Below are positions 5,250 to 64,000 of a stretch of 64,000 bases of DNA, in pieces. The DNA comes from Halobacillus kuroshimensis DSM 18393. Its GTDB lineage: Bacteria; Bacillota; Bacilli; Bacillales; Halobacillaceae. The position numbers and the translations under genes were made by a program. How positions within the stretch are numbered: the stretch's first letter is position 1; each line of letters starts with the position of its first letter. The stretch lies in assembly GCF_000425705.1 (NCBI RefSeq), contig NZ_AUDY01000009.1, forward strand, positions 310,001 to 374,000. The letters are read 5' to 3'. The notes under the pieces were generated by a model, which worked only from the letters and a program-made list of their open reading frames with translations, did not search any database and had not been told where the DNA came from.

Positions 5250-7727
5250 ATGAAAAATCTGAACTTGAAAGTATTGGCAACAGCCGCTGTGACAAGTGCC
5301 ATTGCGTTGGGAACTCTAGCCATCCCTGGAGGAGAAGTGAAAGCCGCTGAAGGTGACTTTGACTTAACGATTATGCATACGAACGATACGCATGCACACT
5401 TGGAGAACGTGCCGCGCCGCGTGACCATCATTGAACAGATCCGTGCTGACCGTGACCATTCTATCCTTCTTGATGCAGGGGATGTGTTCTCAGGTACGCT
5501 TTTCTATAATCAGTACAAAGGGCTTGCAGATGTCCAGTTCATGAACATGCTTGATTATGATGCGATGGTTCCAGGAAACCATGAATTTGATGATGGTCCT
5601 TCTGTGTTTGCTGATTTTATTGATCAAGCGGAATTCCCGATTGTCAGTGCCAACATTGACTACAGCAAGGACGAGCGCTTGAACGGATTGTTCAACGATG
5701 AAATCGGCATGCCTGGGGACAATGGAAATATTTATCCTGCTTCAGTGATCGATGTGGATGGTGAAAAAGTCGGTGTATTCGGTTTGACGACTGAAGAAAC
5801 GAAGTTCCTTGCCAATTCTGGGGACACCATTGATTTTGAAAACTATCTCCAAAAGGCTGAAGATACAGTGAAGATGCTAGAAGGAGAAGGGGTCGATAAA
5901 ATTGTCGCTTTGACCCACCTTGGCGTTAATTATGACAAAACGCTTGCTCAGGAAGTGGAAGGGGTAGACGTTGTTGTCGGATCTCACAGTCATACCAAAC
6001 TGGAGGAACCTCTTGTCTTTAACGAAGATGCTGAACCGACACTTGTCGTACAGGCAGAGGAATATGGAAATTACATCGGTGATTTGGAAGTTTCCTTTGA
6101 TGATGAAGGTGTCCTTACGGAGTGGGACGGAAAACTCATTGATGTTGATGAAGAAGATGAAAACGAAGAATATGTGATTGAATCCGATAAAGAGGCGGCC
6201 GAACTGCTTGCTGAACTGGAGAAGCCACTTGATGAATTGAAGAAAGAAGTCGTTGGAGAAACGACGGTGGCCTTGAACGGAGAACGAAGTGATGTAAGAA
6301 GTGGGGAAACCAACCTCGGGAACTTAATCACAGATAGTATGCTTGCCAAAGCTAAAGAAAAAGTTCCCTCCACGACGATGGCTATTCAAAATGGCGGAGG
6401 CATTCGGGCTTCCATTGACCAAGGACCAATCACTATGGGAGAAGTCCTTACAACGATGCCATTTGGTAATACCCTTGTCACTCTGGACTTAACAGGGCAG
6501 CAGGTGTGGGATGCTCTTGAAAATGCAGTGAGTGACATCGAGAATACCGGCGGCCGTTTTGCCCATGTATCTGGAATGAAATATACGTTCGATCGCTCGA
6601 ATAAAGCAGGAGACCGTATCGTTAATGTCAAAGTGAAAACAGACGATGGATATGAAGCGCTTGATCTGGACAAAGAATACACGGTGGCTACGAACGCCTT
6701 TATCGCCGCAGGTGGCGATGGATATGAAACATTCAAGGAAGCCAAGGATGCCGGTAAGATGACAGAATTATTCTTTGTAGACTATGAAGTATTCAATGAA
6801 TACCTGGAAGAACAGGGCACGGTTTCTCCTGATGAAGAATCCCGTATTGTTGAAAAAACGACAGAACGTGTGAGTGGAGAGGATCGTTACCAAACCGCCG
6901 TTGAGATTTCTAAAAAAGGCTGGGATTCTGCTGACACAGTCATCATTGCCCGGGGAGATGAGTTTGCGGACGCTCTTGCGGGTGCTCCTCTAGCCTACAA
7001 GGAAGACGCGCCGATCCTTTTGACAAAGTCCGGAAATCTGAACAGTGAAGTTGCTGCGGAAATTAAGCGCCTGGGAGCTGAAAAAGCTATCATTCTTGGT
7101 GGGACCGGTGCCGTTTCTGAATACGTGAAATACAAATTGACTGGAATGGGTGTCGATGTAGATCGCATCTCTGGGAAGACACGCTTTGACACAGCGGCCA
7201 ATATTGCCGCCCGTCTTGACGGTAATCCTGAGAATGTCATTGTAGCGGATGGTTTCAACTATCCAGACGCTCTGGCTGTGGCTCCTTATGCTGCCAAGGA
7301 AGGTTATCCGATTCTTCTTTCCAAAACAGATGAGCTTCCATCGATTACCAAAACAGCGCTTAGTGACTTCGATCAGAGTATCGTTGTAGGTGGAACGAAT
7401 GCGATTTCTAAAGAGGTCGAAGCGATGCTTCCTGACGCTTCCCGTTACAGTGGTCAAACGCGTTATGAAACAGCTTCTTCCATTGCCGAACAGCTGGGTG
7501 TGAAGGAAGGGAAGACATTCGTAGCGAATGGTCAGAACTTCGCTGACGCTTTATCGGGCTCTGTTCTGGCTGCGAAGGAAGAAGCCTCCATGCTCCTCGT
7601 TAAGCCGGATCAGCTTCCGAAATCTACGAAAGACACGATTGGAAAGCTTGAAATCAACAACTTCCAAGTACTCGGCGGTACAAATGCGGTCAGTGATGAA
7701 GTGGCAGAGGGATTGGAGCAGAAATAA
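5250..7727 (+). CDS. Secreted 5'-nucleotidase (UshA family) with three CWB2 repeats
   Basis: Protein of 825 residues starting at ATG 5250 behind AAAAGGGGAG. A signal peptide ends near EVKAAEG. The metallophosphatase domain has HTNDTHAHLEN (about 45-55), LLDAGDVFSG (about 73-82), PGNHEFDDG (about 108) and GSHSHT (about 243), which are the two-metal ligands of the family. The 5'-nucleotidase C-terminal domain runs to about 510 with NGGGIRASIDQG and FGNTLVTLDL. Three CWB2 repeats follow from about 540 (ERVSGEDRYQTA). The family removes phosphate from extracellular nucleotides. The CWB2 part is closely similar to that of the upstream nuclease, so both are likely displayed on the same wall polymer and act in sequence. 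Confidence 0.92.
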   Translation: MKNLNLKVLATAAVTSAIALGTLAIPGGEVKAAEGDFDLTIMHTNDTHAHLENVPRRVTIIEQIRADRDHSILLDAGDVFSGTLFYNQYKGLADVQFMNMLDYDAMVPGNHEFDDGPSVFADFIDQAEFPIVSANIDYSKDERLNGLFNDEIGMPGDNGNIYPASVIDVDGEKVGVFGLTTEETKFLANSGDTIDFENYLQKAEDTVKMLEGEGVDKIVALTHLGVNYDKTLAQEVEGVDVVVGSHSHTKLEEPLVFNEDAEPTLVVQAEEYGNYIGDLEVSFDDEGVLTEWDGKLIDVDEEDENEEYVIESDKEAAELLAELEKPLDELKKEVVGETTVALNGERSDVRSGETNLGNLITDSMLAKAKEKVPSTTMAIQNGGGIRASIDQGPITMGEVLTTMPFGNTLVTLDLTGQQVWDALENAVSDIENTGGRFAHVSGMKYTFDRSNKAGDRIVNVKVKTDDGYEALDLDKEYTVATNAFIAAGGDGYETFKEAKDAGKMTELFFVDYEVFNEYLEEQGTVSPDEESRIVEKTTERVSGEDRYQTAVEISKKGWDSADTVIIARGDEFADALAGAPLAYKEDAPILLTKSGNLNSEVAAEIKRLGAEKAIILGGTGAVSEYVKYKLTGMGVDVDRISGKTRFDTAANIAARLDGNPENVIVADGFNYPDALAVAPYAAKEGYPILLSKTDELPSITKTALSDFDQSIVVGGTNAISKEVEAMLPDASRYSGQTRYETASSIAEQLGVKEGKTFVANGQNFADALSGSVLAAKEEASMLLVKPDQLPKSTKDTIGKLEINNFQVLGGTNAVSDEVAEGLEQK

Positions 7728-7738
7728 GCACATCAGTA

Positions 7739-7769
7739 AAAAGCCTCTGGTTATAAACCAGGGGCTTTT
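7739..7769 (+). terminator. Rho-independent terminator after the 5'-nucleotidase
   Basis: Stem AAGCCTCTGGTT with AACCAGGGGCTT, separated by a short loop, then a T run. Confidence 0.85.
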
Positions 7770-7807
7770 CATTTGGATGATAGGAAGGAAAGAATATTGA
7801 AAATAAA

Positions 7808-7836
7808 TTGACAATTATGGTTGAGACTAGTAGAGT
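7808..7836 (+). promoter_or_regulatory. Sigma-A promoter of the riboswitch-mmuP-mmuM transcript
   Basis: TTGACA at 7808-7813, 17-bp spacer, TAGAGT at 7831-7836. The start would fall just upstream of the riboswitch P1 stem. Confidence 0.75.
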
Positions 7837-7849
7837 AATAAAAAAATAT

Positions 7850-7950
7850 CTTATCCAGAGAGGTGGAGGGACTGGCCCTTGGAAGCCTCAGCAGCAGGTC
7901 TTTGAGATACTGTGCTAATTCCAGCGGGTGAACAATCCTGATCGATAAGA
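7850..7950 (+). promoter_or_regulatory. SAM-I (S-box) riboswitch
   Basis: P1 is formed by CTTATC (7850-7855) and GATAAG (7944-7949). Inside are the conserved S-box blocks AGAGAGGTGGAGGGACTGG, CCCTTGGAAGCC and TGTGCTAATTCC, with GCGGG and CCTGATCGATAAGAG at the 3' side. The class binds S-adenosylmethionine and stops transcription when it is abundant. The terminator at 7977-8003 provides the off switch, so the next two genes are expected to be on under methionine/SAM limitation. Confidence 0.95.
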
Positions 7951-7976
7951 GACTTCCATCTATTATTTGTCAGTTG

Positions 7977-8003
7977 ACGCACTCATTCATGGGTGCGTTT
8001 TTT
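7977..8003 (+). terminator. SAM riboswitch expression-platform terminator
   Basis: ACGCACTC (7977-7984) pairs with GGGTGCGT (7991-7998), followed by TTTTTT. Confidence 0.88.
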
Positions 8004-8037
8004 AATTGTTTGCCCACCATAACAGGGGGGGAGACGA

Positions 8038-9447
8038 ATGGAATATCAGTTTAAAAGAGAAATGAAGACGAGACACCTGTTGATGCTTTCACTGGGAGGA
8101 GTTATCGGCACGGGACTGTTTTTAAGCTCAGGGTACACCATCCAGCAGGCCGGCCCGTTCGGGACAATCCTAGCCTATTTGATTGGTGCTTTGGTCGTGT
8201 ATCTGGTTATGCTCTGTTTAGGGGAGCTGGCCGTTCATAACCCTGAAACAGGGGCTTTTCATACATACGCTCATAACTACATAGGGCCGGGGACAGGCTT
8301 TACCGTAGCATGGCTGTACTGGCTGACGTGGACGGTAGCTCTTGGGTCAGAATTCACTGCTGCCGGACTCTTGATGCAGCGATGGTTTCCCGATGTAAGT
8401 GTGTGGATTTGGAGTGCGTTGTTTGCCGTTCTTATTTTTGGATTGAATGCCTTCAGCGTAAAGTTTTTTGCTGAGGCAGAATTTTGGTTTTCCTCTGTCA
8501 AAGTGGCAGCCATTGTCCTTTTTATCATCATCGGATTTGGGGCCGCCTTTGGGTGGATGCAGATGTCGGGGGCAGAACCGGCGCCATTCTTTTCAAATCT
8601 TACGAGTGAAGGCTTGTTCCCAAATGGAATAACAGCCATTTTCATGACGATGCTTGCGGTCAATTTTGCTTTTTCCGGTACAGAATTGATCGGGATTGCC
8701 GCAGGGGAAACGAAGGATCCAGCCAAAAACATACCGACGGCAATCCGGACAACAGTGGCACGGCTGATCATTTTCTTCATTGGAACGATTGTCATTCTAT
8801 CCATCTTCCTTCCCAGTGAAGCGGCGGGAGTTGTGGAAAGTCCGTTTGTCGCTGTCCTTGACCGTATCGGTATCCCTTATGCGGCTGATGTCATGAACTT
8901 TGTTATATTAACCGCTATCCTTTCCGCGGCCAACTCCGGATTATACGCATCAGCCCGGATGCTGTGGTCACTCGCGGACAAGGAAACCATCTCACCGGTG
9001 TTTGCGAAGCTGACAAAAAAGGGAGTTCCTTTGACAGCGATCATCTTCAGTATGCTTGGCGGCGGTCTGGCACTGCTTTCCAGTGTCATTGCCCCGGATA
9101 CGGTTTATATCGTTCTGGTATCGATCTCAGGGCTGGCGGTTGTGGTCGTCTGGATGAGCATCAGCGCTTCGCACTTCCTTTTCCGTCGGGCCCACCGGCG
9201 TGCAGGAGGAGAGGATGGTGACTTATCCTACAAAGCTCCGTGGTACCCGGTGGTTCCGATTACGGCATTCCTTCTATGCCTGGCCTCCTGCATCGGCATC
9301 GCTTTTGATCCGGCACAGCGGATCGCCTTGTACTGCGGAGTTCCATTCATCGCCTTCTGCTATGCGGCTTATTATGTGAGAGAATCTATGAAAAAGAAAA
9401 GGGGAATAAAGCATGTCCAACAAACAAAATCGATCCAATCCCATTGA
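8038..9447 (+). CDS. mmuP: S-methylmethionine / amino acid permease, APC family
   Basis: Protein of 469 residues with about 12 membrane segments. The N-terminus [20 protein letters not shown] is the consensus first helix of amino acid permeases, and [17 protein letters not shown] is the conserved segment after helix 2. The start at 8038 has GGGGGGAG upstream. The assignment to S-methylmethionine rather than another amino acid rests on the SAM riboswitch ahead of it and on the homocysteine S-methyltransferase whose start lies 35 bases inside the permease reading frame; this is the mmuP-mmuM pairing known from other bacteria. It would import S-methylmethionine as a methyl donor for methionine synthesis. 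Confidence 0.85.
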
Positions 9448-10360
9448 AGCACTCCTGGAAAAACAATCGGTTGTTCTTCTGGATGGAGCTCTGGCAACAG
9501 AGCTGGAATCCTACGGATGTGACCTTGATGATCCTTTATGGTCCGCGAAAGTGTTATTGGAAAAACCAGAAGCGATCAAAGCTGTCCATGCCTCCTACTA
9601 CAGGGCAGGAGCAGACATCAGTATCACCGCCAGTTATCAGGCGACGATTGATGGTTTCGCTAAACGAGGGTTATCAGAGGAAGAGGCGGTCACTCTTATT
9701 CGAAAAACGGTCACCCTGGCCGGTGAAGCACGGGATGAAGTGTGGAAGGAGAATCCAGAGAGGCCGAGGCCGCTTACAGCCGCTTCTGTCGGACCCTATG
9801 GTGCTTATTTAGCGGATGGCTCGGAATATACCGGTCATTACGGCGTCACGGATCAACTTTTATATGATTTTCATCAACCACGTATACAGGCGCTTGTTGA
9901 AGCCGGTGCTGACGTTTTAGCGGTTGAAACGCTGCCTTCTCTACAGGAAGCAAAGGTGATTGGTTCTATTTTTCAGGAGTATCCGTCTGCCTCTGCATGG
10001 ATTTCCTTTACATTAAAGGATGGTCAATCCATCAGTGAAGGAATTCCGCTCAAGGAGGTGGCTGAAGCATTGGAGGGCAGCAGGCAGGTGGCAGCGATCG
10101 GGGTGAACTGTGCGACGCTGGAGCATGCGGCTGAAGCTTTACAAGAGCTGGGGCGCTATTCGACCAAACCGCTCATTGTCTATCCAAACTCAGGGGAAGA
10201 TTATAATCCGGAAACGAAAACGTGGCATGGATCCACCAGCCGTCTTGATTTTCATGAGCAGTCCAGCATCTGGTACGAGTATGGGGCAAGGCTTATCGGT
10301 GGCTGCTGCAGAACGACGCCCGCTCATATAAAAAAGCTGGCGGAAATATGGAAATCATAA
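9413..10360 (+). CDS. mmuM: Homocysteine S-methyltransferase
   Basis: Protein of 315 residues, of normal length for the cobalamin-independent MmuM/YbgG type. It starts [17 protein letters not shown], then [15 protein letters not shown]; the zinc-thiolate ligands are visible as the Cys in [10 protein letters not shown] and the two Cys in [11 protein letters not shown]. It transfers a methyl group from S-methylmethionine (or SAM) to homocysteine, giving methionine, in the cytosol. It overlaps the permease gene by 35 bases in another frame, so the two are translationally linked and both are under the upstream SAM riboswitch. Confidence 0.93.
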
Positions 10361-10437
10361 AGAGTAGCACGATTTGTTCAACCATCTTTTTAATCCATGC
10401 TGTTGCAGCGGCATGATTCTACCTTATTTACAAGAAG

Positions 10438-10466
10438 TTTACATAAACTTTACATTTGGGTAGAAT
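10438..10466 (+). promoter_or_regulatory. Promoter of the LTA synthase gene
   Basis: TTTACA (10438-10443), 17-bp spacer, TAGAAT (10461-10466), about 18 bases before the start codon. Confidence 0.65.
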
Positions 10467-10483
10467 AATAGAGAGGTGTTTAT

Positions 10484-12361
10484 ATGAAAGATTCGATAAA
10501 ACGTTTACTAACCAGTTATTTCTTTTACTTTCTTATTATGATTTCCTTGAAGTTTATAATTTTGCGTTATCTGCTTCTTCAAGATACGAGTATTTGGGCA
10601 GGAATTTGGTATGATGCTTCGTTTATCTTGATTTTTATGGCTCTCATTGAGCTTGTCTTTAAGCGGGGCAAAGCGGCTGCCTATCTTGTTCTCGATTTGT
10701 TTTTGTCTCTTTTGTTTATTGGGATGTTGATTTACGAGCGTTACTTCGGAACCGTTCCTACATACTATGACCTATCCCAGCTTAATCAAGTTGGCAGTGT
10801 GAATGAAAGCATGTGGCTGCTCGTCAATGGCACAGACTTTCTGTTTCTCGCAGATCTGCTTCTGCTTGTTGTCATTTGGATTGTGGGCAGGACATGGACG
10901 TATCCAACGAAACAAACGTCCAATTTCGCTATGTCTGTCTTCCTTATTGCGGGTCTTGTGATTGCCATTTTCAATTTTCAAATGAATAAAGGAGAGCCCA
11001 TTCTCGACAGCGCTCTTTTTGCTAAAGAAAACGGATTATTCAATACGCAGTTTGTTCAGTATTACCAGGACCAGACGAACAGTGAAAAAGCCTTCGCTTT
11101 TTCCGGTGAGGATCAGAATGTCACGCAGCAGAAAATAGAAGAGCTGAAAGGCAATTCTTATACACCGATGAGCGAGCATGACTACTTCGGGGTGGCGGAA
11201 GATCGGAACTTGATCGTCGTCCAGATTGAATCCCTGCAGGACTTCGTAATTGGTGAATCGATCGATGGCCAGGAAATTACACCGAACATTAATGAATGGC
11301 TGAACGATAGTATGTATTTCACCGATGTCTATCAGCAGATCGGTTCAGGCAATACATCAGACGCTGAGTTCCTCATGAATACGTCACTTTATCCATTAGG
11401 AAAAAAAGCGACCACCGATCAAGTCGGCGGCATGGAACTTCCTTCTCTGCCAAGAATGCTTGATGAAAAGTCGTATCATAACGTGACCATGCATGCCGAT
11501 GAGGTGGAGTACTGGAACAGGGACGAGCTTTATCCGGCTCTTGGTTTCGATGATTATTATGATGATAAGTTTTACGGGGAGAAAGACACGGTGGGCTTCG
11601 GACCATCGGATGGCTGGTTTTACCACCGCTCGATGGGGGCGATTGATGAAATCGACGAGGAGTATGACAAGTTCTATGCCCATGTGCTGTCGCTGACGAG
11701 CCATACACCGTTTGAAATGCCCGCAGATAAAGAAGGTCTGGATCTTCCATCTGAGTATGAAGGAACTTTAACAGGGAACTATCTCCAGTCCGTTCACTAT
11801 GCGGATCAGGCGCTTGGGGAGTTCTTCCAGGACTTGAAAGACCGCGGCCTCTGGGAGGAGTCAGTCATTGCCCTCTACGGCGACCACTCCGGCCTTCACG
11901 GCAAACTGCTTAAAGACGAGGATCAGGATCTTCTTGCTGACTTTTTAGGGGAGAGGTACTCCCTGTTGAACCGTTTTAATATCCCGTTTATTGTAGGTGT
12001 CCCCGGTGAGGAGGAGCTGACAGGGACGGTCGATCACACCGGAGGACAGATTGATATGATGCCGACGCTCCTGAATCTGCTGGGCGTGGAACCGGAGTCC
12101 CTGTACTTTGGACATAACCTGCTTCATTATGAGAACAACCTGCTCGGTATGCGTTACTATGTTCCAACCAGCTCGTTCTTGAACAATGGAACCTTCTATA
12201 TTGCACAGAACAGCCGCTTCGATGCACGTATATTGAATATGCAAACAAACGAGCGGATTGAAGGTGCGTATAAAGACCCGAATCATGCCTTTAAAGAGGA
12301 AAGAGAAGACATCCTCCAATTGCTCCAATGGTCGGATGCCTACTTTGAAAGCCTGCGTTAA
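10484..12361 (+). CDS. Lipoteichoic acid synthase-family membrane enzyme
   Basis: Protein of 625 residues. Five hydrophobic helices occupy about residues 10-160, followed by an extracellular sulfatase-fold domain. Residues expected for LtaS-type glycerolphosphate transferases are present: Glu in VVQIESLQDF, the catalytic Thr291 in GSGNTSDAEF, and Asp-His in LYGDHSG near 466. The family moves glycerol phosphate from phosphatidylglycerol to growing lipoteichoic acid or primes it. B. subtilis has four paralogues (LtaS, YfnI, YqgS, YvgJ) and I cannot choose among them. It is monocistronic with its own promoter and terminator. Confidence 0.9.
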   Translation: MKDSIKRLLTSYFFYFLIMISLKFIILRYLLLQDTSIWAGIWYDASFILIFMALIELVFKRGKAAAYLVLDLFLSLLFIGMLIYERYFGTVPTYYDLSQLNQVGSVNESMWLLVNGTDFLFLADLLLLVVIWIVGRTWTYPTKQTSNFAMSVFLIAGLVIAIFNFQMNKGEPILDSALFAKENGLFNTQFVQYYQDQTNSEKAFAFSGEDQNVTQQKIEELKGNSYTPMSEHDYFGVAEDRNLIVVQIESLQDFVIGESIDGQEITPNINEWLNDSMYFTDVYQQIGSGNTSDAEFLMNTSLYPLGKKATTDQVGGMELPSLPRMLDEKSYHNVTMHADEVEYWNRDELYPALGFDDYYDDKFYGEKDTVGFGPSDGWFYHRSMGAIDEIDEEYDKFYAHVLSLTSHTPFEMPADKEGLDLPSEYEGTLTGNYLQSVHYADQALGEFFQDLKDRGLWEESVIALYGDHSGLHGKLLKDEDQDLLADFLGERYSLLNRFNIPFIVGVPGEEELTGTVDHTGGQIDMMPTLLNLLGVEPESLYFGHNLLHYENNLLGMRYYVPTSSFLNNGTFYIAQNSRFDARILNMQTNERIEGAYKDPNHAFKEEREDILQLLQWSDAYFESLR

Positions 12362-12375
12362 AATAAGAAGTATAA

Positions 12376-12412
12376 GGAACCTTGTCCTATATTGGGTAAG
12401 GTTCTTTTTTTC
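12376..12412 (+). terminator. Rho-independent terminator after the LTA synthase
   Basis: GGAACCTT (12376-12383) pairs with AAGGTTCT (12398-12405), followed by T7. Confidence 0.82.
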
Positions 12413-12585
12413 TGTCGGGAATTGATAGAATAATGAATCTTTAATGGAATGGTGTCCTTCTGTTTACAAAATGGAAGGTTTTTGGTAGTTTATGAGTTGT
12501 GTCTTCTATGATTAGGTACATAGGACTATTGTGAACAAAAGTTGTAAATCTACTATTATATTTTCTGCTGTCCATTATAAAAGTA

Positions 12586-12614
12586 TTGTCGAACGATGAG
12601 GCTTATTCTATAAT
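12586..12614 (+). promoter_or_regulatory. Promoter of the pgs operon
   Basis: TTGTCG (12586-12591), 17-bp spacer, perfect TATAAT (12609-12614), about 45 bases before pgsB. The AT-rich stretch 12413-12585 holds no gene I can support and may carry regulator sites. Confidence 0.7.
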
Positions 12615-12659
12615 TATCTAGTCTATTGAAGAAATATGTTTAAGAGGAAGTGAGCTCAT

Positions 12660-13841
12660 ATGCTACTGATCCCTATTGTGCTGATCATCGTTCTTGCTGC
12701 TGGTATTTATGAATGGCAGCGCCATAAAAAGAACATCGATGCTCTGCCGATACGCGTCAACATCAACGGGGTACGTGGGAAATCCACGGTTACACGTCTT
12801 GTTACGGGGATTGTAAAAGAAGCGGGTTACAAAACGATTGGAAAGACAACAGGAACCTCTGCACGGATGATTTTCTGGGATACACCGGAAGAACAGCCGA
12901 TCAAACGGCGTCCGGAAGGTCCGAACATCAGGGAGCAGAGAATGGTTGTGAAGGAAGCCGTAGATCGTGGTGCAGAGGCCCTCGTCAGTGAGTGCATGGC
13001 AGTCAATCCCGACTACCAGATCACATTCCAGGAAAAGATGCTTCAGGCCAATATCGGGGTTATCGTAAACGTCCTGGAAGACCATATGGATGTTCTGGGG
13101 CCGACATTGGAAGAGGTGGCTGAATCCTTTACCGCAACGATTCCATACAACGGTCACTTAATTGTGTCAGAAAGTCCTTATGTTGAAAAGTTTAAAGAGA
13201 TTGCAGCGAAACGGAACACCGAGGTGATTGTGGCTGATAACAGCCGAATTTCCGATTCGTTTTTACTGCAATTTGAATATATGGTATTTCCTGAAAACGC
13301 TTCGTTAGCTTTAGGCGTCGCTCAGGCCCTTGGTATCGATGAGGAAACAGCATACAGAGGAATGCTGAACGCTCAGCCGGACCCGGGAGCCATGAGGATC
13401 CTCCCGATGGGAGACCAAGAAAAACCGTCATACTTCGTGAACGGTTTTGCGGCGAATGACGCCGTTTCCACGATTAATATATGGAAACGTGTGGAGTTCC
13501 TCGGATATCCGACAAAGAATCCGATTGTCGTTATGAACTGCCGGGAAGACCGTGTGGATCGTACGGAACAGTTTGCCCGTGACGTTCTTCCTTACATTCC
13601 AACTGATACGCTTGTGTTAATCGGGGAAACGACCGAACCGATCGTCACTGCGGTTAACGAAGGAAAGATCAAAGTGGAAACGCTGCTGGATTTGGAAGGG
13701 AAGTCCACGGATCAGATTATGGATGTCCTTTCAGAGATGTTCACGGACCGCGTCATTTATGGAGTTGGAAACATTCACGGAGCTGCAGAACCGATGATTG
13801 AACGAATGCAGGATTATAAGATTCAAACAAGCGTCAGCTGA
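12660..13841 (+). CDS. pgsB: Poly-gamma-glutamate synthase subunit PgsB/CapB
   Basis: Protein of 393 residues, exactly the length of B. subtilis PgsB. An N-terminal membrane helix (about 2-15) is followed by the Mur-ligase-like ATP site NGVRGKSTVTRL (residues 36-47), then EALVSECMAVNP and VNVLEDHMDVLGPT, typical of the family. It is the ATP-dependent amide ligase that joins glutamate by gamma bonds, working with PgsC and PgsA at the membrane. It starts at ATG 12660 behind AGAGGAAG and is the first gene of the operon, 19 bases before pgsC. Confidence 0.97.
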   Translation: MLLIPIVLIIVLAAGIYEWQRHKKNIDALPIRVNINGVRGKSTVTRLVTGIVKEAGYKTIGKTTGTSARMIFWDTPEEQPIKRRPEGPNIREQRMVVKEAVDRGAEALVSECMAVNPDYQITFQEKMLQANIGVIVNVLEDHMDVLGPTLEEVAESFTATIPYNGHLIVSESPYVEKFKEIAAKRNTEVIVADNSRISDSFLLQFEYMVFPENASLALGVAQALGIDEETAYRGMLNAQPDPGAMRILPMGDQEKPSYFVNGFAANDAVSTINIWKRVEFLGYPTKNPIVVMNCREDRVDRTEQFARDVLPYIPTDTLVLIGETTEPIVTAVNEGKIKVETLLDLEGKSTDQIMDVLSEMFTDRVIYGVGNIHGAAEPMIERMQDYKIQTSVS

Positions 13842-60183: not shown

Positions 60184-60193
60184 ATTGATTTTA

Positions 60194-60225
60194 AAGCAGG
60201 GCCCCTGACAGGGGTCCTGCTTTTT
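60194..60225 (+). terminator. Terminator after the MarR-MFS-small protein genes
   Basis: AAGCAGGGCCCCT pairs with AGGGGTCCTGCTT (one mismatch), followed by T5. Confidence 0.88.
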
Positions 60226-60303: not shown

Positions 60304-60333
60304 TTGCTTTTCTGTATGCGCTTCCATTAGAAT
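60304..60333 (+). promoter_or_regulatory. Promoter of the putative sulfoquinovose operon with a cre-like site
   Basis: TTGCTT (60304-60309), 18-bp spacer, TAGAAT (60328-60333). The spacer contains TGTATGCGCTTCCA (60313-60326), matching the cre consensus at 12 of 14 positions, so CcpA repression is plausible. Confidence 0.5.
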
Positions 60334-60344
60334 GGATAACAACA

Positions 60345-60376
60345 AAAGGTACCTATGTATTTTTAAAGGTAGTTAT
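60345..60376 (+). promoter_or_regulatory. Direct repeat in the operon leader, candidate operator
   Basis: AAAGGTACCTAT (60345-60356) and AAAGGTAGTTAT (60365-60376) match at 10 of 12 positions and are spaced exactly 20 bp, two helix turns apart, between the promoter and the first gene. Confidence 0.5.
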
Positions 60377-60397
60377 CTTTTAATGGGGAGGAACAAT

Positions 60398-61084
60398 ATG
60401 CTAAAGACTATTCAGAAGTGTAATGAAGGTATGGAAATCCACCATATTGATGAGGCGTCCTTCCACTTGTTTGGAAGAGTGCATGAGAATTTTCCAAAAG
60501 ATCGTTTACTAGACAAAATGAAAGACGTCTCTATTCCAGCGGAAGGGAATGTCTACGAACCCGCTAATCTAAGGTTGGAAACAGCAGGGGATAAAGAAAA
60601 AATTGAGAACTTCTACTATGGTGGGATGCCTGTCCAGATTGGTTTTTGTGTTGGTAAGAACTCACATTTAGGAGGGTTGGAATTCCACAAGGGAAGCGAA
60701 TTCAACATAGCTGTCACTGATATGATTCTTTTAATAGGTCATTTTAATGATATAAAAGATCATACGTTTTCAACAGAGCATTTAAGGGCGTTTTACGTGC
60801 CTGAGGGTTATGTAGTCGAATTGTTTCAAACCACCTTACACTTAGCTCCTTGTAAAGTATCTGAAGAAGGGTTTAAAACGATTGTTATTCTTCCAGAAGG
60901 CACAAACACCCCTTTAAATGATTCAGCTGTCGAGCAGGATCTCCTTCTATTTAAGAAAAATAAGTGGCTGCTATCCCATAAGGATCATCAGCGTTTTGTA
61001 TCTGAAGGAGCCCATGTTGGTATAAAAGGTCCTAACGTTTTTGTGAATTATTTAATGGAGCGAGAGGGAGGAAAGCAGCAATGA
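60398..61084 (+). CDS. DUF4867-family protein (SftX-like position)
   Basis: Start ATG 60398 behind GGGGAGGAAC; the frame from 60233 spans the promoter. It has 228 residues. Recognisable family text: IHHIDEASFHLFGRVHENF, EGNVYEPANLRLE, GGMPVQIGFCVGKNSHLGGL then EFHKGSEFNIAVTD, AFYVPEGYVVELFQTTLHLA and LPEGTNTPL. It looks like a cupin-type beta protein with several histidines, but no function is proven. As I recall, a DUF4867 protein named SftX is encoded in Bacillus sulfo-transaldolase clusters. Here it is first in the operon and overlaps the transporter gene by 4 bases. An uronate isomerase (KduI-like) is an alternative idea, less likely. Confidence 0.78.
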   Translation: MLKTIQKCNEGMEIHHIDEASFHLFGRVHENFPKDRLLDKMKDVSIPAEGNVYEPANLRLETAGDKEKIENFYYGGMPVQIGFCVGKNSHLGGLEFHKGSEFNIAVTDMILLIGHFNDIKDHTFSTEHLRAFYVPEGYVVELFQTTLHLAPCKVSEEGFKTIVILPEGTNTPLNDSAVEQDLLLFKKNKWLLSHKDHQRFVSEGAHVGIKGPNVFVNYLMEREGGKQQ

Positions 61085-62838
61085 ATCTCTTTTTTACACT
61101 GATTACATGTGTCTTGTTCATGGGTTTGGTTGGCTGGGTGTCTTATCGAAAAGCCAAGGGACAGGTGAATGATTCCGACGGATACTTTCTAGCGGGAAGA
61201 GGCTTGACAGGCGGATTTATTGCAGGAAGTCTCCTGCTCACAAATTTGTCTGCTGAACAATTAATAGGGTTGAATGGTCAGGCCTATCGTACAAATCTTT
61301 CAAATATGGCCTGGGAAGTAACCGCTCCCATTGCAGTCATCATTATGGCTTTGGTCTTACTTCCGAAATATCTGGGTGGTGCATTTTCAACGCTTCCTGA
61401 ATTTTTAAGTACCCGCTTTGATGATGGGGTAAGAAGGTATATCGTTGTTCTGTTTATGCTGGGGTATGCGTTCGTGACGATTCCTTCTGTTCTTTATTCA
61501 GGTGCACTGGCTGTTTTAAAACTATTTGATGTTCCTTCACTTTTAGGTATATCTTTTGAGTCATCGGTATGGCTGGTCATATGGGTCATCGGTATTATCG
61601 GTGCTGTTTATGCTATCTTTGGTGGTTTAAGAGCCGTAGCTGTGTCTGACACATTAAATGGAATCGGCCTTTTGCTGATCGGTTTGATGATTCCTGTTAT
61701 CGGATTGTTTGCCCTTGGAGATGGAAACTTCTTTAGAGGATTTGAAACGATGGCCACAGAAAATGCTGATAAGTTGAATGCTATTGGTGGAAAGGAAGAC
61801 TCTGTACCATTTTCAGCAATTTTTACAGGAATGATTTTCATGAATATGTTTTACTGGGGAACGAACCAGTATGTCATTCAGCGGGCTCTCGGAGCTAAAA
61901 ACCTTGCTGAAGGTCAAAAAGGGGTTCTGTTTTCAGGTTTTTACAAGCTCCTCGTTCCAATTTTAATGATGATTCCAGGTGTTATCGCTTTTCATTTGTA
62001 TGGTTCCGGATTTAAAACCGTCGATTTAGCTTACCCAACTATGGTTACTAATTTGATGCCGACCATTTTCTCCGGATTGTTTCTTGCAGTGCTGCTCGGC
62101 GCGGTCTTCTCCAGCTTTAACTCATTGTTGAATTCTGCTGCGACCATGTTCGCTCTGGATGTTTACAAGCCAGGCTTTAAACCGGATGCATCCGATGAGC
62201 AGTTGATTCGGGTTAGTAAATATTTTGGAACCATTCTGGCTTTGGTGTCCTTTTTTATTTCACCGATGCTGATGAGTGCACCGGATGGCCTTTGGGACAT
62301 CATCCGTAAGTTTACTGGTTTCTTCAACATTCCAATCATTGCTATTGTCCTTGTAGGGATTGCATCGAAATTTGTCCCCCCTCTGGGAGCAAAAATAGCT
62401 GTCATCTTTCATGTAGTGACCTACTATATGCTGGTATGGGGTTTAAATCAGTTGTTTGGTATTGAAATTACCATGAACTTTATCCATATCTCTGCTATTC
62501 TTTTCTTCATCGAAGTAGGAATTATGCTGGTTGTGGGATATATACGGCCGCTTTCAGAACCGTATTCTTTCAAACATGCACCAAAAGTGAGCATGGTACC
62601 ATGGAAGTACGCGATCCCTACAGCTATTATTCTCTTAAGTTTAATTGTATTCGTTTACATTACCTTCTCTCCAATAGGATTGGCATACCCGGATGCTGTC
62701 GTTTCGTCATGGTTCTGGGCAGCGTCAGGCGGTTTAATTGGATTGACAACTGTAACCTTAGTATTTGCTCTGAAAAAGTGGGACAAGAAGTATGATCAAG
62801 TTTTAGAAAATCAAACCAAAAAAGCGGCAAATTTATAG
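61081..62838 (+). CDS. Sodium:solute symporter (SSS) family, probable sulfo-sugar importer
   Basis: Protein of 585 residues; ATG 61081 overlaps the upstream stop (ATGA). About 14 helices. The N-terminus has DGYFLAGRGLTGGFIAGSLL then LTNLSAEQLIGLNGQAY, the sodium-site helix of SGLT-like symporters, with GGLRAVAVSDTLNGIGLL and FSSFNSLLNSAATMFALDVY later. Its relatives carry sugars, and it lies between DUF4867 and a sulfoquinovosidase-like gene. Sodium-driven uptake of sulfoquinovose or its glycerol glycoside is therefore a reasonable inference; a sodium-coupled carrier suits a halophile. Confidence 0.88.
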   Translation: MNLFFTLITCVLFMGLVGWVSYRKAKGQVNDSDGYFLAGRGLTGGFIAGSLLLTNLSAEQLIGLNGQAYRTNLSNMAWEVTAPIAVIIMALVLLPKYLGGAFSTLPEFLSTRFDDGVRRYIVVLFMLGYAFVTIPSVLYSGALAVLKLFDVPSLLGISFESSVWLVIWVIGIIGAVYAIFGGLRAVAVSDTLNGIGLLLIGLMIPVIGLFALGDGNFFRGFETMATENADKLNAIGGKEDSVPFSAIFTGMIFMNMFYWGTNQYVIQRALGAKNLAEGQKGVLFSGFYKLLVPILMMIPGVIAFHLYGSGFKTVDLAYPTMVTNLMPTIFSGLFLAVLLGAVFSSFNSLLNSAATMFALDVYKPGFKPDASDEQLIRVSKYFGTILALVSFFISPMLMSAPDGLWDIIRKFTGFFNIPIIAIVLVGIASKFVPPLGAKIAVIFHVVTYYMLVWGLNQLFGIEITMNFIHISAILFFIEVGIMLVVGYIRPLSEPYSFKHAPKVSMVPWKYAIPTAIILLSLIVFVYITFSPIGLAYPDAVVSSWFWAASGGLIGLTTVTLVFALKKWDKKYDQVLENQTKKAANL

Positions 62839-62850
62839 GAGGTACCAATT

Positions 62851-64000
62851 ATGCAGACTAAACTAAAGCAAGGATTGGACATTCACACTAATGGGGGAAC
62901 CTTTGAGGTTACATTGGACAGTAAATCTATTTTTAAGCATTCCCCAGCTTCTCCATGTTTATATGTCGGAAGCGGGGAAGAGACTATTGAGATGTATCGA
63001 GGGAATTATCATATTGAAGATTATGTTGTGGAAAGGTTCGGGTTGAAGACCTACGAAATAAGCCGAAAAAGAGATGATGGTTTTCAAATAGACTTTAAAA
63101 GAACGCCTGCAGACACAGAAGTGTTAACAGTGGATTTCCTCTACAAAGACCATAATTTAAAACTAACTTTTTCTGGTGATCGTGAGACGTACAGCCGTTT
63201 TTGGATCCGGATTGCCGCTGATTCTGATGAGAAGATCTATGGATGTGGGGAGCAGATGTCCCATTTGAACCTGCGTGGAAAAAACTTCCCGTTATGGACT
63301 TCAGAACCTGGCGTAGGAAGAAATAAAAAGACGTATACGACATTTCTTGCGGATGTTCATGACAAAGCAGGCGGCGATTATTATCATACGAATTTTCCGC
63401 AGCCAACGTACCTTTCCTCTAAGAAATACTTCTGTCATGTCGATACGACAGCTTACGCAGATTTTGATTTCCGTAAAGATCAATATCATGAGCTGCAAAT
63501 GTGGGAAGTTCCTGAACACATCATGTTTGAAACAGGAGCGGATTTTAAAGAGCTGGTTTCTCGTTTAACGAAGCATCTTGGAAGGCAGCCGGAGCTTCCA
63601 GAATGGACGTATGATGGAATATGGCTGGGGATGCAGGGAGGAACGGATGCTGTTCAGAAAAAAATAGATGAGGCCCGGGAAAAAGGATTGAAGGTGGGAG
63701 CTGTATGGGCTCAGGACTGGCAGGGGAAACGTTTCACTTCCTTTGGACGTCGGTTGAACTGGAACTGGCAGTGGGATGCGAATGAATATCCTGGTCTGGA
63801 TCAAAAGCTTAAAGAATGGAAAGAGCAGGGCATTCGTTTTCTAGGCTACATCAACCCATATTTAATTCTTGATGGACCGCTGTATCAAGAAGCTGCTGCG
63901 AAAAACTACTTTGTGCTGAATCAAAAAGATGACATTTACCTAGTCGATTTTGGAGAGTTTGACTGTGGAATTGTAGACTTGACCAACCCAGACGCTTTCG
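62851..64000 (+). CDS. GH31 sulfoquinovosidase-like enzyme, N-terminal 383 residues
   Basis: ATG 62851 follows ATAGGAGG; the frame is open to the window edge. After a beta-sandwich domain (to about 225) the barrel contains AVWAQDWQGKRFTSFGRRLN followed by WNWQW. This aligns with E. coli YihQ, and Gln288, Arg301 and Trp304 fall at the same numbers as the YihQ residues that recognise the sulfonate group. Ordinary alpha-glucosidases lack this set. FLGYINPYLILDG and DFGEFDCGIVDLTNPDAF continue the match. The nucleophile and acid/base Asp (405 and 472 in YihQ) lie past the edge. It would hydrolyse sulfoquinovosyl glycerol to sulfoquinovose. No signal peptide, so cytosolic. Confidence 0.88.
   Translation, partial: MQTKLKQGLDIHTNGGTFEVTLDSKSIFKHSPASPCLYVGSGEETIEMYRGNYHIEDYVVERFGLKTYEISRKRDDGFQIDFKRTPADTEVLTVDFLYKDHNLKLTFSGDRETYSRFWIRIAADSDEKIYGCGEQMSHLNLRGKNFPLWTSEPGVGRNKKTYTTFLADVHDKAGGDYYHTNFPQPTYLSSKKYFCHVDTTAYADFDFRKDQYHELQMWEVPEHIMFETGADFKELVSRLTKHLGRQPELPEWTYDGIWLGMQGGTDAVQKKIDEAREKGLKVGAVWAQDWQGKRFTSFGRRLNWNWQWDANEYPGLDQKLKEWKEQGIRFLGYINPYLILDGPLYQEAAAKNYFVLNQKDDIYLVDFGEFDCGIVDLTNPDAF

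Follow-up and report, generated by a model that had tools for sequence, protein, structure and literature searches.

Three genes close a 64,000-nucleotide stretch of Halobacillus kuroshimensis DSM 18393 (C2:310001-374000 of its genome, hereafter the window): a DUF4867 gene, an SSS-family symporter gene and a GH31 glycosidase gene. Do they open an operon for the utilization of sulfoquinovose (SQ), and, if so, through which pathway would the sugar be degraded? The first-pass annotation took them for the start of such an operon in a halophilic Bacillaceae, with a sulfo-transaldolase, an isomerase and a sulfolactaldehyde (SLA) enzyme expected to the right. We read the DNA on that side for sulfoglycolysis genes in a stretch extending past the window edge, L002 (window position = L002 position + 57999). 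The downstream genes and their profiles bear out an SQ operon, in the genus Halobacillus, and our analysis supports a nine-gene unit that encodes, with a probability of about 95%, the sulfo-EMP2 pathway.

Results

Profile searches across the window and its right-hand flank gave the order SqvB/DUF4867, SSS, GH31, SqvD, SqiK, GntR, SqiA, SlaB and AEC, with all nine genes on the + strand, small gaps or overlaps between them, and E-values far beyond chance level. Gene content, order, active-site residues and conservation are direct observations. The first gene (60398..61084) encodes a sqvB/sftX-like DUF4867 cupin of 228 amino acids (aa; PF16161, 2e-69; PDB 9gyy, 1.3e-60). Its stop (61084) overlaps by 4 bases the start (61081) of the gene for a 585-aa Na+/solute symporter (61081..62838; PF00474, 1.2e-45; NF007790, 707.4 bits, cut-off 401), and 12 bases separate the symporter stop (62838) from the GH31 start (62851), in agreement with the packing originally described. 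The GH31 sulfoquinovosidase gene (YihQ/SftG type; PF01055 and PDB matches) occupies 62851..64000, corresponding to the first 383 of 683 aa, and the rest of it lies past the window edge (whole gene, L002:4852-6903). It is followed, in L002 coordinates, by sqvD (6979-8322), sqiK (8335-9501; PF00365, 6.1e-53), gntR, for a GntR/UTRA regulator (about 9491-10222; profile search), sqiA, for a class II aldolase (10238-11128; PF01116, 6.9e-101), slaB, for an aldehyde dehydrogenase (11146-12582; PF00171), and a gene for an AEC (Mem_trans) permease (12597-13538; profile search). The isomerase and SLA enzyme expected right of the window are present as SqvD and SlaB, along with the kinase, the aldolase and the permease. 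The expected sulfo-transaldolase is none of the nine genes; a kinase of the phosphofructokinase (PFK) type and a class II aldolase are found instead.

For comparison, we used 40 loci: our own and 39 confirmed among 54 stretches matched in one SqvD-keyed scan of named genomes, a sample that leans to close relatives and leaves transaldolase clusters unsampled. The loci span about 10 kb on each side, and a gene scored absent may lie further off (L026 ends with its contig); presence counts are set by identity thresholds.

The GH31 protein contains Gln288, Arg301, Trp304, Asp405, Asp472 and Tyr508, all six of which are invariant in the 27 GH31 proteins compared, our own included; we take the Gln, Arg, Trp and Tyr to bind the sulfonate and the two Asp to be catalytic. 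Alignment to Escherichia coli YihQ (5aed, 869.6 bits) places the key-residue stretches at the same numbering, which confirms the earlier statement about Gln288, Arg301 and Trp304, and the part of the protein beyond the window supplied the Tyr508 and Asp equivalents. Further PDB matches were 8r56 (1020.8 bits) and 6pnr (882.2 bits), the latter being Eubacterium rectale SftG, a measured sulfoquinovosidase (PMC11968277). These proteins could also belong to an ordinary operon for alpha-glucosides or another hexose, built from homologues of GH31, isomerase, PFK and fructose-bisphosphate aldolase, and the generic names given by NCBIfam to the GH31 protein, the PFK and the aldolase point that way. 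Such an operon is nevertheless very improbable in view of the Gln288/Arg301/Trp304/Tyr508 set for sulfonate binding, the SqvD score over the equivalog cut-off, the match of DUF4867 to 9gyy, and the gene order kept with the sulfo-EMP2 species Alkalicoccus urumqiensis, which we take to be the renamed Bacillus urumqiensis of the original sulfo-EMP2 work.

The sulfo-EMP2 pathway comprises SqvD, the PF00365 kinase SqiK and the PF01116 aldolase SqiA, with oxidation of SLA to sulfolactate in aerobic Bacilli (PMC9594981), and the same enzyme names appear in PMC12890257. All four of its parts, namely SqvD, SqiK, SqiA and an SLA dehydrogenase, are encoded in the Halobacillus operon. SqvD, an L-fucose-isomerase-like protein, passes the NCBIfam equivalog for sulfoquinovose isomerase (NF048012, 791.8 bits, cut-off 700); against PDB it gave two matches only, both near E 1. 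The gene for SqiK lies directly 3' of that for SqvD in every one of the 40 loci. SqiA scores 429 bits to 8q57/8q58, against 235.7 bits to the best chain named fructose-bisphosphate aldolase; the PDB names of 8q57 and 8q58 are generic, and we take both to be sulfo-EMP2 aldolases. SlaB has no second cysteine and contains both the His/Asn pair reported for the B. megaterium and B. urumqiensis enzymes and the Phe-Asn-Val tripeptide reported for that of B. megaterium (PMC10599462). The His and the Asn are each found in 36 of the 38 best aldehyde dehydrogenase matches, two of the 38 loci being without an orthologue over the identity thresholds.

DUF4867 and SqvD are also common to the sulfo-TAL/SFT pathway, in which a transaldolase cleaves sulfofructose directly, and the E. 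rectale cluster of that type likewise includes a GH31 sulfoquinovosidase. In Halobacillus, however, it is the kinase and the class II aldolase that sit in the operon, no operon gene matches PF00923, and the rest of the genome has just one such match, some 320 kb away at C2:52231-52857, leaving a transaldolase route only a slight chance. We retain the sulfo-EMP2 assignment.

Several points weigh against this assignment. No activity of SqvB is proven, a relative having been negative in mutarotase and kinase tests (PMC11968277); B. urumqiensis SlaB, the nearest one studied, resisted expression (PMC8873060). The NCBIfam name for the GH31 protein is just alpha-glucosidase, and no NCBIfam aldehyde dehydrogenase family was over its cut-off for SlaB among the 25 listed of 43. 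The roles of the SSS and AEC proteins are assigned from gene position and family alone. Finally, NCBIfam places SqiK in a diphosphate-dependent PFK subfamily (NF010675, 327.5 bits, cut-off 273), and its nearest PDB relatives, 3k2q and 3hno, depend on pyrophosphate (PPi). Because the SqiK residue that we take to decide the phosphoryl donor is Gly in 40/40 loci, we set aside a pyrophosphate enzyme despite these best matches and lean towards ATP as the donor. By its best matches SqiK belongs to the PPi-dependent PFK branch, yet it carries the motifs GG(N/D)GT and PKTVDND (40/40 loci), and a switch of phosphoryl donor may have taken place.

As to the fate of the sulfonate, PF04295, presumably the domain carried by SuyB of the sulfolactate sulfolyase SuyAB, has no match in the genome (5 of 14 control genomes match), and no Xsc was found over cut-off, the best of eight weaker matches reaching 280.1 against 676.4 bits. 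We therefore set aside desulfonation in the same cell by these two enzymes, other desulfonation routes not having been searched, and because neither a PF04295 match nor an Xsc over cut-off was found, sulfolactate is probably released by the cell. The SSS symporter is the putative importer of SQ or sulfoquinovosyl glycerol. SSS and AEC genes occur together in 26 of the 40 clusters, with neither in 11, SSS alone in 2 and AEC alone in 1 (Fisher p 3.8e-7, relatedness uncorrected). That the AEC permease might export sulfolactate, paired with the symporter for import and export, is a tentative proposal that we consider somewhat doubtful. No literature linking an auxin efflux carrier with sulfolactate and sulfoquinovose was among the matches listed; other exporter wordings were not searched.

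The first-pass annotation noted that sulfo-transaldolase clusters of Firmicutes contain a DUF4867 gene (SftX). DUF4867 is found in such clusters but is not specific to them: among 127 network-cluster members, it occurs in 86 transaldolase, 15 transketolase and 23 EMP2 clusters (PMC11968277). The 2His-2Glu metal-site ligand pattern of that paper is present in the Halobacillus protein, and the Glu-x-His-x3-Glu motif and a later His are kept in all 35 DUF4867 copies compared. The 9gyy chain would be the B. megaterium DUF4867 protein of the same study. Identity to the three close Halobacillus copies is 59-60% for DUF4867, against 78-97% for the remaining eight operon proteins; DUF4867 diverges far faster than its neighbors, while its metal-site residues are invariant (35/35). 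We considered and rejected a swap for a foreign copy: fast drift seems the simpler account, because the same three Halobacillus copies stay nearest among the loci compared. A tie between SqvB and GH31 (26 of 27 clusters with GH31, 9 of 13 without) was too weak to keep, the genomes being related.

Across the 40 loci, SqvD and SqiK are constant (40 each), followed by SqiA and GntR (38 each), SlaB (36), SqvB (35), SSS (28), and GH31 and AEC (27 each); all nine genes are found in 22, ours included. The closest named loci are those of Halobacillus litoralis, H. faecis and H. aidingensis (SqvD identity 93-94%). SqvD by itself would be weak evidence of the genus, since islands can move between genomes, but the SqiK positions of three genomes placed in the same genus agree with those of L004-L006, which makes the genus Halobacillus. 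GH31 alternates with a GH188-like protein: 26 loci have GH31 alone, 13 the GH188-like gene alone, one has both and none has neither. The best matches of the L021 GH188-like protein are 8qc2, 8zn9 and 8qc3; of these, 8QC2 and 8QC3 represent SqgA enzymes, which are sulfoquinovosidases that depend on NAD (PMC10755693). L026, L028 and L039 lack SqvB and SlaB, and L026 and L039 also lack SqiA; SqvB is absent from L035 and L038, orthologues of GntR and SlaB from L024, and GntR over threshold from L025. With looser thresholds, L004-L006 gain a Gfo/Idh protein of 23-25% identity and a divergent ABC system.

Two variant layouts stand out in this comparison. Lentibacillus salicampi (L026), Virgibacillus subterraneus (L028) and Lentibacillus persicus (L039) combine an ABC transporter with SqvD, SqiK, GntR and a GH188-like protein, followed by a threonine-synthase-like gene; for the copy in L028, the match to PRK08197 reaches 647.5 bits (cut-off 303). 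The Bacillus solitudinis locus (L025:13500-21335) is the sole one with both GH31 and GH188-like genes over thresholds; it further contains components of both SSS and ABC transporters, together with another SqiK-like stretch, and perhaps consists of two SQ modules side by side.

The interval originally given as starting at 60304 begins not with a gene but with the first base of a putative -35 box; the likely DUF4867 start is the ATG at 60398, preceded by GGGGAGG. The predicted sigma-A promoter (60304..60333, + strand) consists of TTGCTT (60304-60309), an 18-base spacer and TAGAAT (60328-60333), and in related loci the region ahead of the operon shows, by eye, a comparable arrangement. A hairpin with a T run, resembling an intrinsic terminator (60193..60225, + strand; read by eye), separates this promoter from the upstream MFS gene. 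Between the -35 and -10 boxes lies a CcpA cre-type site (60313..60327, no strand assigned) with 0 mismatches to the consensus. When 130 bases upstream were scored in the 23 operons that have GH31 and in which SqvB adjoins SSS, the best match was perfect in 17 and had 1 mismatch in 4, that is, 0-1 in 21/23, the exceptions being L019 (2 mismatches) and L025 (3 mismatches). Dinucleotide shuffles attained 0-1 mismatch in 5.4% of cases, and a match with 2 or fewer is at chance level (52% of shuffles). Just after the -10 box, an inverted repeat, TACCT-N12-AGGTA (60350..60371, no strand assigned; by eye), is a candidate GntR operator, and related loci have inverted repeats in a similar position (by eye only). 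The GntR regulator encoded within the operon and CcpA, acting at the promoter cre site, probably control the operon.

Within the genus, SqiK is present in 5 of 22 genomes, our own included. G010, a genome of the same genus in which SqiK finds no match at E 1e-50, has the MFS gene (cut by the stretch end), csiD and lhgO side by side (90-95% protein identity). Its alignment to L002 is interrupted between L002:2169 and L002:13597, where G010 has 47 bases and L002 has 11,427; this break encloses the whole operon, which indicates that the operon was gained or lost as a unit. The 11.4-kb island has a G+C content of 43.0%, compared with 47.4% in the window, and no mobility gene is among the genes assigned within it. 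In G019, SqiK lies about 270 kb from csiD, indicating that the site of the operon differs between Halobacillus species. Directly 3' of the island, about 300 bases after the operon, csiD (glutarate dioxygenase) and lhgO (L002:13837-16008) would by family convert glutarate to 2-oxoglutarate; they look like glutarate catabolism unrelated to the operon, and csiD is found in 14 of the 22 genomes.

Discussion

For the substrates, fluxes, export and regulation of the operon, we infer the following scheme. SQ or its glycerol glycoside would be imported via the SSS symporter, and GH31 would release SQ from the glycoside. SqvD would isomerize SQ to sulfofructose, with SqvB/DUF4867 perhaps assisting in ring opening or mutarotation, and SqiK would phosphorylate sulfofructose at C1. 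SqiA would then cleave sulfofructose-1-phosphate into dihydroxyacetone phosphate, which enters glycolysis, and SLA, which SlaB would oxidize to sulfolactate; the AEC permease might provide its exit route. H. kuroshimensis would be one more Halobacillus among the probable SQ feeders that leave desulfonation of the released sulfolactate to others.

The presence of DUF4867 in EMP2 clusters is already in print, and a DUF4867 of Halobacillus faecis is named in the legend of Fig. 4C of the same paper (PMC11968277, 2025). This was the only sulfoglycolysis paper, judged by title, that we found to mention both Halobacillus and sulfoquinovose. The route itself has been described in related bacteria, to which the Halobacillus operon adds another case of sulfo-EMP2; modestly new are the cre-type site in the promoter, the 11.4-kb island, the alternation of GH31 and GH188-like proteins, and the co-occurrence of AEC and SSS. 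The 40-cluster comparison separates a constant part (SqvD, SqiK and nearly always SqiA) from exchangeable ones (GH31 or GH188-like; SSS with AEC, or ABC) and yields concrete candidates for the exporter and the control sites.

Among known systems, the H. faecis locus (L005) has all nine genes in the same order, its proteins being 60-96% identical to ours, but over its 21 kb neither CsiD, LhgO nor the upstream MFS protein has a match. The sulfo-EMP2 cluster of A. urumqiensis (L037; PMC9594981) keeps the order DUF4867, GH31, SqvD, SqiK, GntR, SqiA and SlaB at 33-67% identity. It differs in that an SSS gene is absent, a sugar transporter of the ABC type is encoded nearby on the other strand, and about 0.8 kb separates the AEC gene from that for SlaB. 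The sulfo-TAL/SFT clusters of B. megaterium and E. rectale share DUF4867 and an SqvD-type isomerase with the Halobacillus operon, as well as GH31 in E. rectale, but use a transaldolase where Halobacillus has a kinase and a class II aldolase (PMC11968277, PMC9594981).

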